A stretch of 38,389 bases of DNA from Nitrospirota bacterium (GTDB taxonomy: Bacteria > Nitrospirota > Thermodesulfovibrionia > Thermodesulfovibrionales > UBA1546): assembly GCA_016208875.1 (NCBI GenBank), contig JACQXD010000021.1, forward strand, positions 1 to 38,389, in the 5' to 3' direction. Below the pieces are notes generated by a model. That model did no database searches and was not told the origin of the DNA. It saw only the letters and a program-made list of their open reading frames with translations. The first letter of the stretch is position 1, and each line of letters begins with the position of its first letter. Below, piece after piece: positions 18,778 through 23,903 of this stretch. Both the position numbers and the translations under genes were made by a program.

Positions 18778-18809
18778 TATTTATCGTGACAAATCCTCCT
18801 AAATGTTTG

Positions 18810-19766
18810 ATGGAAGAGGAAAAGGATTCTATCCTCATTGTGGATGACCTAAAAGTCCATCTGGAGCTGACGGAGGCTATCTTTGAGAGAGAGGGCTACA
18901 ATGTTCTCACTGCTCAAAATGCCGCAGATGCCCTGCAAGTTGTCAAGGGTTTCTCCCCTGATTTAGCCATCCTCGATGTGATGATGCCCGGCATAAGCGG
19001 CTATGATCTCTGTAAAAAACTAAAAGAAAGTTACGGCACAAGATTCTTTCCGGTAATCCTTGTAACCTCCCTGTCCGAGATGGAAGACAAGATAGCAGGT
19101 ATCGAGGCCGGTGCGGATGACTTCTTGAACAAACCTTTCAACTCTCTTGAACTCGTAACGAGGGTTCGCTCACTCCTAAAATTAAAAAGACTTCAAGAAC
19201 AACTTGACCATTCGGAAAGTGTTATTCTTACATTGGCAGTGGCCCTCGAATCCAAAGATCCTTATACGAAGGGACATTCGGAAAGGGTTGCTGACCTCTC
19301 GGCTGAGTTTGCTGCATTTATCGGGCTGTCGGAGAAGGAACAGTACCTTATCCGAAAGACAGGCAGACTTCACGATATAGGCAAGATAGGGATAGGGGAT
19401 TATGTACTCAACAAGGCAGGCATTCTAACAAAAGAGGAATTAGAGCACATAGAGCAACACACTGTAATAGGCGAAAAGATATGCAGTCCGCTGCGGTCCC
19501 TCAGTGCAATTCTTCCGACCATCAGGCACCATCATGAAAGATGGGACGGGACAGGTTCCCCTGATGGACTAAAGAGTGAGAATATACCTCTTATGGCAAG
19601 GATATTGGCGATAGTGGACAGCTTTGATGCGATGGTCTCCGAGAGACCGTACAGGAAACCGGCATCTGTGGAGGAGGCACTCGGAAGGATGGATACCGAA
19701 ATGTCTTCGGGCCAATGGGACCCTACCCTTCTGCAGAGATTTATCGAAATGATGAGAAAAAGATAG
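18810..19766 (+). CDS. Response regulator with HD-GYP-type output domain (probable c-di-GMP phosphodiesterase)
   Basis: The N-terminal receiver domain has ILIVDD and phospho-acceptor ILDVMMPG (Asp 64 counting from the alternative GTG 18786), plus KPF. The output domain has the metal-binding HD of LHDIGKIGIGDYVL near residue 196 and HHHERWDGTGSPDGL near residue 247. HD-GYP proteins hydrolyse cyclic di-GMP; here the signature reads GSP instead of GYP. The HD metal ligands look intact, so activity is possible but partner binding through GYP may differ. ATG 18810 puts the receiver start (MEEEKDSILIVDD) at the usual distance; GTG 18786 would be almost leaderless. The hybrid kinase follows after 65 bases and is the likely phosphodonor. 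Confidence 0.92.
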   Translation: MEEEKDSILIVDDLKVHLELTEAIFEREGYNVLTAQNAADALQVVKGFSPDLAILDVMMPGISGYDLCKKLKESYGTRFFPVILVTSLSEMEDKIAGIEAGADDFLNKPFNSLELVTRVRSLLKLKRLQEQLDHSESVILTLAVALESKDPYTKGHSERVADLSAEFAAFIGLSEKEQYLIRKTGRLHDIGKIGIGDYVLNKAGILTKEELEHIEQHTVIGEKICSPLRSLSAILPTIRHHHERWDGTGSPDGLKSENIPLMARILAIVDSFDAMVSERPYRKPASVEEALGRMDTEMSSGQWDPTLLQRFIEMMRKR

Positions 19767-19831: not shown

Positions 19832-22800
19832 ATGATTAAGATTGCCATAGTCGGTGCGGGTAAGGGTGGAAGCTCATTGCTCGATGTATTTCATACCAAC
19901 GGCGAGGTAAAGGTAGTCGGCATAACGGATAAAGACGGAAAGGCACAGGGCCTTCGCCTTGCAAAGGAGTGGGATATCTTTATTGCAGCCGATATAAAGG
20001 ATCTCTACAGCCGAAACCCCGAAATTATGATAAACGCCACAGGGAAACCGGAGGTGTCCGCACTTATTAAAGACACCGCCCCCCATTCCGTAGAGGTTAT
20101 CGAAGGCACAAGTGCTAAGTTCCTCTGGGAGATCGTGAGGAGACATCAGATGGCGAAAAATGACATGGATGTCCTTTATCAGAGTGGTCTCCTCCTTACA
20201 AAGGCCAGAAACCTGAAAGAGGTTTTAGATAAGGTGCTCCTGTCTGCTATGGAACTTACAGAGGCACATGCCGGAAGCATTGCCCTCGTTGAACGCGCGG
20301 AAATGGTAATGGTAGCCCATAGTGGTTTGAGTCCGGAGTTTTTTAAAGAACCGCGATGGAGACCGAGGGACACGGGACTGACATCTTATATCTTAAAAGC
20401 AACAGGGTGTGTTGAGTTTCAAAATATAGAGAAGGAACCTCTCTTTGCAGGCACAAAGATATTGAAGGAAGGGATAAAATCACTCCTTGCATGTCCGCTT
20501 TTTCTCGATGGCGGTGTGGTCGGCATACTTTACATAGATGATTTCAGGCCGAGAGAATTTACAGAGAGGCATAAAAACCTCATACAGCTTTTTGGGGCTA
20601 AGGCGGCACAGGCAATAGAAAAATCCAAAATCCTTGACGAGCTATATATGAACATCCATGAACTCGATAAAACAACGAGTTATCTTCAGAGCGTGCTCAA
20701 CGATTCGGAGGATATGATAGCTACGACCGATACCGAAGGCAGGATTGTGGAGTTTTCAATGGGCGGAGAAAGGATTCTCGGTTATAAAAAAGATGAGGTT
20801 GCCGGAAAAACGGCATCCGATTTTTATGTAAATGCGGATGAAAGAAATAAGATCGCCGATATCCTAAAAAAGATAGGCGCCGTACATAACCATGAGACTG
20901 TATTGTTGAGAAAGGATGGAACACAGGTTGATATAAACCTTACTATTTCACAGCTCAGGGACAGGACAGGAAAGATTATCGGCACAGTCGGGGTCAGTAA
21001 AGATATTACAGTCGAAAAACACCTTAGAAGAGAACTTGAAGAAAAGAACAGGGAATTAAGCGAACTTAACGAGAGGCTTGAAGATAAGGTTTTAGAGCGA
21101 ACAAAAGAACTCGATAAAATAAACAGAGAGCTTCGAAGGGCCAACGAAGTAAAGGCACGCTTTATTGCCAGTATGAGCCATGAACTGAGAACACCGCTCC
21201 ATTCCATAATGGGATTTTCCGAGATTCTCCTCGACAAAACATTTGGAGACGTCAATGAGAAACAGGAGAAATATATAACCAATATTCACACCTCGGGCAG
21301 ACATCTTCTCCATCTTGTAAATAATGTATTGGACCTCGCAAAGATAGAGTCGGGAAAGGTAGAACTTTCATATGAATCGTTTACGCTAAAGGATGTGATC
21401 GATGAAGTAATATCTGTGATAAAGCCCCTCGCCGATAAAAAGCTTATAGAGGTAAAAAGCGACATCAGCGGTAATGCGGACTTTACTGCCGACAGGGTCA
21501 AGTTTAAACAGGTTCTCTATAATCTTTTATCCAATGCCATAAAGTTCACACCGGATAATGGGAAGACAGGTATAAGGGCAGAGAAATTAACGAATAAAGA
21601 CATTTTCCCATGGGCCCCTCAGGGCACCGAGTTTCTTAAGGTCTCTGTCTGGGATGAAGGCATCGGTATAAAGCCAGATGATAAAGAGAAGATATTTGAG
21701 GAGTTCGAACAAGTCGACCAATCGAGATCAACCGAGGGAACAGGGCTGGGGCTGTCCCTAACCAAAAGGCTTGTCGAACTACACGGCGGACATATAGATG
21801 TAGAAAGCACCTACGGTAAAGGGAGCGTGTTTAACTTCTATCTACCGGTAGTCGTTCTACCTAAAACAGCCATTGGTAAAAAGCAGGTATTGCCTGAAGC
21901 AGTGTCTACATTTGCATGGGCGGACGAGAATGCCCCGCAGGTCCTTGTTGTGGAGGATGACCTGCCCACATCGGAATTATTAACCATTCATCTTACGAGG
22001 GCAGGATACAGAGTGGCACATGCATATGACGGCATAGAGGCTATAGAGAAGGCAAGGGAACTTCAGCCCTTTGTAATAACCCTCGATATAATGCTTCCCA
22101 AAAAAGACGGATGGGAGGTTCTGCAATCTCTAAAGGCAGACCCGAAAACAAGCGATATACCCGTAATCATACATTCGATAATAGATAACAAAGAGCTCGG
22201 CTTTGCCCTCGGCGCTGCCGATTATCTCGTAAAGCCTGTGGATAAGGCCGTCCTTCTCGGTAGACTGGGAGAGTTGTCTTTAGCGACAAAGAAGAGGCGT
22301 TTCCCCGTAACCATACTTACGGTTACCGATGATAAAAATACCCAGGATTATCTAAATGAGATATTCATCGGTGAAGGATTTCTTACGCAATTCGCCTCCG
22401 ATGCCGAAGGAGGCATTGATCTGGCCCTTGCAACTAAGCCTAATGTGACTATCATTGACTTGAATATCCCCGAAGATGGGTTTAACCTTATCAAAAATTT
22501 TAAAGAAAACCCTGCCACAAAGGGCATTCCGATTTTCGCCCTTACGTCAACTACGCTTTCATCTGATGAGAGTCTCCGTATGGCAGGACAGATCGAAAGG
22601 ATTTTGAGAAAAGATGCACTCAGTTCAAAAGAGCTGATAAACCATTTGAGAGACCTTGAGGTTTTACTACCAAAAAGGGCCGGACTGATAGACGAAATAA
22701 CAGGTCTCTTCAACCACAGATATTTTCAGATAAGGCTTGCCCAGGAAACCACCAGAGCCAAAAGATATAAATTTCCGTTAGTCCTTGCCGTCCTGGACGT

Positions 22801-23173
22801 AGACCACTTCGGCCATTATGTAGATAAACACGGAGAATACTACAGTAATCTCGTCCTTAGAAAGATAGGTGATCTTCTGAGGAAAAATATAAGAGGCTCG
22901 GATGTGGTTGTGAGATACGGAGGCGACGCCTTTGCATTGATACTTACGAATACGCTTCTCTCTTCGGGCGTGAGCCTCTGTAAAAGATTTCTTTCCATAA
23001 TACATGATTATCCGTTTCTTAAAGAGGAATCCCAGCCTAACGGCAAGATCACTGCAAGCATAGGGATGCTTGAGTTCAAAGGACAATCCCCTGAAGAACT
23101 GATCCAGTCGGCAGAGAAGGCACTATTCCTTGCCATTGAGAAGGGGAGAAATAAGGTAGAGGTTATTAGCTAA
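19832..23173 (+). CDS. Hybrid histidine kinase: Rossmann - GAF - PAS - HisKA - HATPase - REC - REC - degenerate GGDEF
   Basis: The 1113-residue, apparently soluble protein starts at ATG 19832 with GGGAGG upstream. Residues 1-110 form a Rossmann-like nucleotide-binding domain (IAIVGAGKGGSSLLDVF, NATGKPEV). A GAF domain follows (about 115-270), then PAS (about 287-400) and a coiled coil. The HisKA box SHELRTP has His 450, and the ATPase has the N box NLLSNAIKFTP near 564, DEGIGI and GTGLGLS. The first receiver has Asp 752 (TLDIMLPKKDG) and KPVD. The second has Asp 876 (IIDLNIPEDG) but an unusual switch region. The GGDEF domain carries GGDAF at 1030-1034 in place of GGDEF, so cyclase activity is unlikely. 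The partner HD-GYP regulator lies upstream. Confidence 0.95.
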   Translation: MIKIAIVGAGKGGSSLLDVFHTNGEVKVVGITDKDGKAQGLRLAKEWDIFIAADIKDLYSRNPEIMINATGKPEVSALIKDTAPHSVEVIEGTSAKFLWEIVRRHQMAKNDMDVLYQSGLLLTKARNLKEVLDKVLLSAMELTEAHAGSIALVERAEMVMVAHSGLSPEFFKEPRWRPRDTGLTSYILKATGCVEFQNIEKEPLFAGTKILKEGIKSLLACPLFLDGGVVGILYIDDFRPREFTERHKNLIQLFGAKAAQAIEKSKILDELYMNIHELDKTTSYLQSVLNDSEDMIATTDTEGRIVEFSMGGERILGYKKDEVAGKTASDFYVNADERNKIADILKKIGAVHNHETVLLRKDGTQVDINLTISQLRDRTGKIIGTVGVSKDITVEKHLRRELEEKNRELSELNERLEDKVLERTKELDKINRELRRANEVKARFIASMSHELRTPLHSIMGFSEILLDKTFGDVNEKQEKYITNIHTSGRHLLHLVNNVLDLAKIESGKVELSYESFTLKDVIDEVISVIKPLADKKLIEVKSDISGNADFTADRVKFKQVLYNLLSNAIKFTPDNGKTGIRAEKLTNKDIFPWAPQGTEFLKVSVWDEGIGIKPDDKEKIFEEFEQVDQSRSTEGTGLGLSLTKRLVELHGGHIDVESTYGKGSVFNFYLPVVVLPKTAIGKKQVLPEAVSTFAWADENAPQVLVVEDDLPTSELLTIHLTRAGYRVAHAYDGIEAIEKARELQPFVITLDIMLPKKDGWEVLQSLKADPKTSDIPVIIHSIIDNKELGFALGAADYLVKPVDKAVLLGRLGELSLATKKRRFPVTILTVTDDKNTQDYLNEIFIGEGFLTQFASDAEGGIDLALATKPNVTIIDLNIPEDGFNLIKNFKENPATKGIPIFALTSTTLSSDESLRMAGQIERILRKDALSSKELINHLRDLEVLLPKRAGLIDEITGLFNHRYFQIRLAQETTRAKRYKFPLVLAVLDVDHFGHYVDKHGEYYSNLVLRKIGDLLRKNIRGSDVVVRYGGDAFALILTNTLLSSGVSLCKRFLSIIHDYPFLKEESQPNGKITASIGMLEFKGQSPEELIQSAEKALFLAIEKGRNKVEVIS

Positions 23174-23204: not shown

Positions 23205-23903
23205 TTACGAAAAGAGCCGGAAAAGCAGAAAGGTCACTACTGCCCCCATGAGGCTGCCGAGAATTACCTCCCACTTATTGTGAACCTTTCTTACGATCCT
23301 GCTCTGTGCGATCAACACCGCAAGGATAAAACAGAGCAGTGACGCGATGAAGTTCTCCGTTATATACGTTATTGCAACCCAGGCTGAAAATGCGAGTGCG
23401 GCATGCCCGCTCGGCATGCCTCCGCTTAATGGATGACCCTTTCCGAAAGAGGCCTTCGTTATCACCACAAGTATAAGCACGATTATAAATGAGATGATAG
23501 CGATATCTTCCTTTGAGTGTTTTGTTATGTGAAGTCCTTTATCAAAAATATCACGTATATAAGGAAATAAAATGATATAGCCTATGAATGCAACTCCAAA
23601 TGCCGTTAAAAATACTGCACCGGCAGCTATGTCCTTTACCGCACGCACTTTTTCATTATGTCCCGGAGACATTATGTCGGCTATCGCCTCTATAGAGGTA
23701 TTAAACATTTCTGCAAGGAGCACGGCTATCACCGAAAGGGCAATTATCAGAAATTCCGTACGTGTGACACCTACGATATAACTCAAGAGAAGCACAACGG
23801 CAGCACTGTAGAAATGATACCTCAGATGCCGCTGGGTCTTCGCTGCATGAAGTATCCCCTCTATCGCAAAATTAACGCTCTTAATCCATTTTCTGAGGGG
23901 CAT
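23205..23903 (-). CDS. Diacylglycerol/undecaprenol kinase (DgkA type) fused to a PAP2 phosphatase domain
   Basis: The 232-residue membrane protein joins two lipid enzymes. Residues 1-115 are a DgkA/UndK domain with AEMFNTSIEAIADIM and KVRAVKDIAAGAVF, the acid and lysine pattern of the Gram-positive-type kinase that phosphorylates undecaprenol. Residues 120-232 are a PAP2 domain with GMPSGHAALAFS and SRIVRKVHNKWE. The central histidine and SR-H elements are there, but the final Asp of SRx5Hx3D seems replaced by Glu or shifted. Combined kinase and phosphatase activity would tune undecaprenyl phosphate. The start overlaps the upstream YfhO gene by 23 bases, so it is the last gene of that operon. 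The substrate of the PAP2 half is inferred. Confidence 0.9.
   Translation of the reverse strand: MPLRKWIKSVNFAIEGILHAAKTQRHLRYHFYSAAVVLLLSYIVGVTRTEFLIIALSVIAVLLAEMFNTSIEAIADIMSPGHNEKVRAVKDIAAGAVFLTAFGVAFIGYIILFPYIRDIFDKGLHITKHSKEDIAIISFIIVLILVVITKASFGKGHPLSGGMPSGHAALAFSAWVAITYITENFIASLLCFILAVLIAQSRIVRKVHNKWEVILGSLMGAVVTFLLFRLFS

Follow-up and report, generated by a model that had tools for sequence, protein, structure and literature searches.

In bacterial signaling, input from NAD+/NADH is known mainly through Rex-type repressors and through flavin or quinone sensors. Rex is a winged-helix DNA-binding repressor in which a C-terminal Rossmann domain reads NAD(H). Among characterized kinases, the closest to the protein described here is SgmT of Myxococcus xanthus, a cytoplasmic hybrid kinase composed of an N-terminal GAF domain, HisKA/HATPase domains, one receiver and a C-terminal GGDEF domain (PMC3509222). 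The GGDEF domain of SgmT has a degenerate A-site (GGGVF) and an intact RxxD I-site, and it binds c-di-GMP (PMC3509222).

The window, meaning the whole 38,389-nucleotide stretch of Nitrospirota DNA that was analyzed, encodes a hybrid histidine kinase next to a response regulator. The features of the two genes are as follows.

18786 to 19766, + strand: response regulator with an HD-GYP-type domain, 326 amino acids, predicted partner of the kinase (Pfam REC and HD_5)
19832 to 23173, + strand: hybrid histidine kinase gene, 1113 amino acids (open reading frame, Pfam)
19832 to 20179, + strand: N-terminal Rossmann input domain, aa 1-116 (AlphaFold, Foldseek, profile against the PDB, conservation over 81 homologues)
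20105 to 20194, + strand: long helix, aa 92-121, leading from the Rossmann sheet to GAF (AlphaFold secondary structure)
20204 to 20620, + strand: GAF domain, aa 125-263 (Pfam GAF_2, E 7.5e-17)
20684 to 21010, + strand: PAS domain, aa 285-393 (Pfam PAS_9, E 1.8e-16)
21152 to 21355, + strand: HisKA dimerization and phosphoacceptor domain, aa 441-508 (Pfam, E 1.5e-21)
21491 to 21850, + strand: HATPase_c kinase domain, aa 554-673 (Pfam, E 1.3e-27)
21941 to 22261, + strand: receiver 1, with Asp752 and Lys801 (Pfam Response_reg, motif positions)
22313 to 22651, + strand: receiver 2, with DD, IIDL and K motifs present (second Response_reg stretch, boundaries from sequence)
22688 to 23155, + strand: GGDEF domain, aa 953-1108 (Pfam, E 7.6e-31)

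A GGAGG-type ribosome site lies immediately 5' of the kinase ATG. The H-box histidine, ATPase domain and receiver aspartate of a hybrid histidine kinase were all present (motifs SHELRTP, LDIMLP and YLVKP), with the phosphoacceptor His450 placed by motif position within SHELRTP at aa 449-455. Pfam matches together with a model of the N-terminus gave the order Rossmann-GAF-PAS-HisKA-HATPase-REC-REC-GGDEF. No transmembrane segment was found in the kinase, whose most hydrophobic 19-mer (aa 217-235) lies within the GAF core, and the protein is predicted to be soluble. An initial annotation, made from the DNA letters, had read a Rossmann-GAF-PAS start without a transmembrane segment, and Pfam, AlphaFold, Foldseek and hydrophobicity bear this out. 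Like SgmT, the window kinase ends in a GGDEF domain with a degenerate A-site and an intact RxxD I-site, for which c-di-GMP binding is predicted. Unlike SgmT, which as described has neither a Rossmann nor a PAS domain and only one receiver, it carries both domains and two receivers, and its predicted partner is an HD-GYP protein rather than the DNA-binding DigR.

The structure of the Rossmann domain was predicted with AlphaFold from an alignment of 37 sequences (pLDDT 85). The modeled elements occur in Rossmann order: beta-1 (aa 2-7), alpha-1 (11-21), beta-2 (26-32), alpha-2 (39-46), beta-4 (65-68), alpha-4 (73-82) and beta-5 (88-90), followed by a helix (92-121) that runs towards GAF. Model confidence drops in this last helix, which is likely, at correspondingly lower confidence, a signaling linker. 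The motifs of the domain are G8-A-G10-K-G-G13, D33, N68-A-T-G71 and W99. Neither Pfam nor NCBIfam provided a family name, only generic or sub-threshold matches. For aa 1-116 the Pfam matches were all sub-threshold (GFO_IDH_MocA, E 0.0024; PglD_N, E 0.021), whereas some family members just pass the Pfam cut-offs for Gfo/Idh/MocA and DapB (PF01408, PF01113).

A profile built from 24 relatives matched acylating acetaldehyde dehydrogenase best in the PDB (E 1.2e-5), with DapB (5.4e-5), Gfo/Idh (2.9e-4) and Rex (0.016) further down. The best Foldseek matches likewise came from acylating acetaldehyde dehydrogenases, in their NAD domains (7z3s, E 8.9e-6; 1nvm, TM 0.62-0.63; 4lrs, TM 0.65); the NAD-binding domains of PheF, DmpF and AmnH ranked near the top, and Gfo/Idh enzymes, DapB and a Rex-family repressor (3wg9, E 7.4e-4) came after them. 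With the acylating acetaldehyde dehydrogenases (DmpF/AmnH/PheF) the window domain shares the glycine loop, the acidic end of beta-2 and a GLxxAxxxGIPTT-like stretch, but the catalytic domain of the enzyme is missing from the kinase, where a signaling helix follows the sheet. Gfo/Idh/MocA enzymes and DapB differ from the window protein in that the latter has no substrate domain. Because no catalytic or substrate domain stands behind the Rossmann domain, aa 91 being followed by the helix and GAF, catalysis is not expected. The Rex likeness, a Rossmann domain as NAD(H) sensor, is accompanied by weak sequence similarity and a different construction: the window kinase has its Rossmann domain at the N-terminus, carries kinase domains and was found to contain no winged helix.

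Conservation was assessed over 81 non-redundant homologues. G8, an acidic residue at position 33 (D/E) and N/D/E at position 68 were present in 81/81, and A44 in 80/81. In the model, beta-1, beta-2 and beta-4 have G8, residue 33 and residue 68, respectively, at their C-terminal edges, and these conserved residues of the glycine loop, beta-2 and beta-4 correspond to the positions with which dehydrogenases hold the dinucleotide. By its glycine loop, acidic beta-2 end and topology, the modeled N-terminal domain is a genuine Rossmann fold of the NAD(P)-binding superfamily. It matched no known sensor family in Pfam or NCBIfam and retains nucleotide-binding residues in its model, the two points on which the initial annotation had made its reading depend. 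The domain is short, with five strands and about 90 residues ahead of the last helix, and given this length the nicotinamide half of the predicted pocket may be incomplete. It is conceivable, if unlikely, that the domain is a fossil that binds no small molecule and instead holds the kinase dimer together or offers a docking site to a partner. In one hybrid-kinase sub-clade the loop reads GGNIGAS or GGNIAGS, a weakened GxGxxG, and the motif ending in W99, a residue outside the glycine loop that is kept in 75 of 78 homologues, could form a contact surface. Yet G8, an acidic residue 33 and a polar residue 68 stay invariant at the cofactor edge however much the outputs diverge, as would be expected of ligand binding and not of scaffolding.

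The Rossmann domain was not confined to this kinase. A single-sequence search recovered it in 31 of 61 related genomes, and a profile search at a lenient cut-off (E<=1e-3) in 266 of 396 Nitrospirota genomes, the weakest matches of which may be ordinary enzymes. At E<=1e-8 it was carried by 100 of the 345 genomes of a second phylum, that of one deltaproteobacterial MAG. Since searches for this domain alone find it in 31/61 and 266/396 genomes, its presence in the window is not a matter of chance. Named carriers include Nitrospira moscoviensis, Candidatus Manganitrophus and deltaproteobacterial MAGs. The outputs fused to it comprise GAF-PAS-HisKA-REC-REC-GGDEF hybrids, HisKA_3 kinases, sigma-54 AAA+ activators with a Fis HTH, GAF-GGDEF proteins, LuxR-HTH with GAF-GGDEF, PAS-HisKA kinases (some with two Rossmann copies), GAF proteins with a divergent C-terminus and an MCP signaling domain; stand-alone forms also exist. 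The Rossmann domain is thus a portable, widespread modular input domain found on at least five kinds of output. The initial annotation had named no characterized kinase with the full domain order, and SgmT, the nearest characterized kinase, does differ. The idea that the domain itself is unique to the window's kinase is ruled out by its wide occurrence on other outputs. In a tree of the domain, which has too few columns to resolve the deep forks, outputs cluster and several switch repeatedly (13 changes in all; the lowest number possible is 7, and shuffling gives 38).

This reuse bears on the possibility that the window protein is a hybrid kinase of the ordinary sort, with GAF or PAS doing the actual sensing, GGDEF locating the protein through c-di-GMP and the Rossmann domain contributing minor modulation. 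Both GAF and PAS are intact in the window kinase, and in SgmT sensing falls primarily to the GAF domain, with localization driven by the I-site (PMC3509222). The HisKA_3, sigma-54 and MCP forms, however, have no GAF or PAS domain, and the Rossmann domain is the only recognizable input there, so that an ordinary sensor arrangement of this kind is rather improbable.

The MCP form comes from a third setting, Acetoanaerobium noterae (Bacillota, Clostridia), in which a 260-residue protein joins the Rossmann domain to an MCP signaling domain (L177:2507-3289, NZ_CP154629.1). Its domain aligned with the family at an hhalign probability of 99.7% and a profile E of 2.2e-25. Because this protein was the sole match in a 2.6-Mb record, the profile does not merely collect Rossmann enzymes. 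The A. noterae protein is soluble and chemoreceptor-like. NZ_CP154629.1 (2.63 Mb) is filed as a plasmid and is chromosome-like, with 25 MCP-like places; a search of plasmids with the window's own Rossmann domain gave no match. Tandem Rossmann domains ahead of PAS-PAS-HisKA were seen twice (L157:5133-7436 and L158:5158-7494), and the first of these genes adjoins heterodisulfide-reductase-like genes. The stand-alone forms of 130 residues (L068:9776-10174, L069:9642-10028 and L174:5147-5542) bear a conserved extra C-terminal helix (HELIVRLIM or PEVIAFLIW), and no telling operon was found around them, their neighbors, named by eye, being groEL/ispG-like or leuS/moaA-like.

The gene neighborhoods of the relatives point to NAD(H) as the ligand. 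In all 11 loci of the sigma-54 form (two of them the same contig) the gene immediately 5' to it is that of malate dehydrogenase, and in 9 of those 11 a NuoF-like NADH-module gene lies downstream; all 11 loci belong to one clade, and the linkage may represent a single ancestral event. The order in Manganitrophus-type Nitrospirota is malate dehydrogenase, Rossmann/sigma-54 activator, NuoF-like gene and Fe-S biosynthesis protein (L033:8699-12798, L071-L079). The activator probably controls the adjacent NADH genes in these organisms. Independently of the malate dehydrogenase link, one GAF-GGDEF form in the window's own class heads an operon of NuoE-, NuoF- and NuoG-like genes, from which 57 bp separate it. 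No NAD enzyme adjoins the kinase in the window's own locus. NAD(H) is favored because of the malate dehydrogenase and Nuo neighbors and the NAD-type acidic residue 33, both circumstantial. NADP(H) is less likely, and a preference for NADP is disfavored, because position 33 is acidic in all 81 homologues.

An acidic residue at the end of beta-2 also occurs beyond NAD binders, which counts towards a different nucleotide-type ligand, such as a UDP-sugar (as in PglD/NeuD), ADP-ribose, acyl-CoA or an amino-acid or aldehyde intermediate, with the kinase reading the corresponding pathway. Weak matches to PglD_N and NeuD, a CoA_binding match for the stand-alone form and a length about as short as that of PglD_N are consistent with such a ligand, of which a PglD-type nucleotide-sugar is the main possible case. 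That NAD-dependent dehydrogenases top both the profile and the fold searches, and that relatives adjoin malate dehydrogenase and NuoEF-type NADH modules, argues against it, and a ligand of this kind is considered improbable. Of the sensing roles proposed in the initial annotation, NAD(H)/NADP(H) or a nucleotide-sugar, the first part gains from the NAD-type glycine loop and acidic beta-2 residue, NADP(H) recedes, and the nucleotide-sugar is a possible but less likely ligand.

The link to the HD-GYP regulator that had also been proposed is supported by relatives. The REC-HD-GYP gene was immediately upstream in 21/31 hybrid-kinase loci, the regulators in other loci were 47-76% identical to that of the window, and an overlap of 4-8 bases with the kinase gene was common. 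This adjacency and frequent overlap make regulator and kinase a conserved two-gene unit. The regulator keeps the HDIGK and HHERWDG motifs, and GYP is replaced by GSP in the window and by GFP in most orthologues; judged by these residues, phosphodiesterase activity is probable, though short of certain.

In the GGDEF domain of the window kinase the A-site is degenerate (GGDAF at aa 1030-1034, positions 22919-22933) and the I-site RGSD is intact (22892-22903). Of the hybrid kinases whose GGDEF domain could be read (n=28), 28/28 retained the RxxD I-site and 1/28 an intact A-site, GG[DE]EF; the short GAF-GGDEF relatives mostly retain GGEEF. The guanine-contact Asn of active forms, at the position which we take to be PleD N335, is Val in the window (VDK as against ND). 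An active diguanylate cyclase is ruled out by the A-site and guanine-site residues, and GTP sensing at the A-site is disfavored by the degenerate A-site and the loss of the N335-equivalent Asn. Of the earlier proposal that GGDAF marks a c-di-GMP or GTP sensor rather than a cyclase, the lack of cyclase activity therefore stands, c-di-GMP is likely and GTP is unlikely. The C-terminal GGDEF domain is likely an inactive c-di-GMP receptor, following the SgmT/PopA pattern of a domain that has c-di-GMP as its ligand but does not synthesize it (PMC3509222). The window genome contains 12 further GGDEF matches.

Beyond the computed fold, cofactor-edge residues, absent catalytic domain, reuse on outputs, A-site/I-site pattern and gene pair, we infer which ligand binds, in which direction it throws the switch, that phosphate passes to the HD-GYP protein and that there is feedback. 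The glycine loop and Asp33 would most likely bind NAD+ or NADH, or register the ratio of the two. Binding would alter the set of the helix at aa 92-121, which runs into the GAF-PAS-HisKA dimer, and His450 would then autophosphorylate and serve as phosphate donor for both receivers of the kinase and for that of the neighboring HD-GYP regulator. The phosphorylated regulator would lower c-di-GMP, and the C-terminal GGDEF domain, cyclase-dead with an I-site, would probably read c-di-GMP and feed back on the kinase or localize it. This scheme as a whole, in which a catalytically bare NAD-type Rossmann input acts through the kinase on receivers and HD-GYP protein while GGDEF reads c-di-GMP, we consider marginally more probable than not to be correct.

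A search of the open literature, with subscription journals, CDD and InterPro outside its scope, returned nothing specific on a Rossmann-GAF-PAS kinase, Nitrospira Rossmann kinases, NAD sensors or Rossmann chemoreceptors, and the word Rossmann is absent from two broad sensor reviews (PMC8846402, PMC8534201). The kinase as a whole is a variant of SgmT-like hybrid kinases, and its portable Rossmann input domain is the part with the best claim to being new. The reuse of this domain across signaling proteins suggests that it serves cells to gauge internal redox or metabolic conditions. If kinases, sigma-54 activators, c-di-GMP enzymes and a chemoreceptor share such a dehydrogenase-like input, redox state would have a direct route to phosphorelays and c-di-GMP. 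More tentatively, and at somewhat less than an even chance, it may be a general-purpose intracellular NAD(H)-reading domain that arose from a dehydrogenase cofactor domain and was placed on nearly every signaling output in several phyla, connecting redox to phosphorelays and c-di-GMP, with the window's kinase adding a c-di-GMP feedback sensor. The domain appears to be present in most sampled Nitrospirota genomes, including nitrite-oxidizing Nitrospira.

Beyond the 3' end of the kinase gene and convergent with it, the window encodes a fusion of a prokaryotic diacylglycerol kinase and a PAP2 phosphatase domain (23205-23903, - strand), and this position is retained in genomes of the same family.
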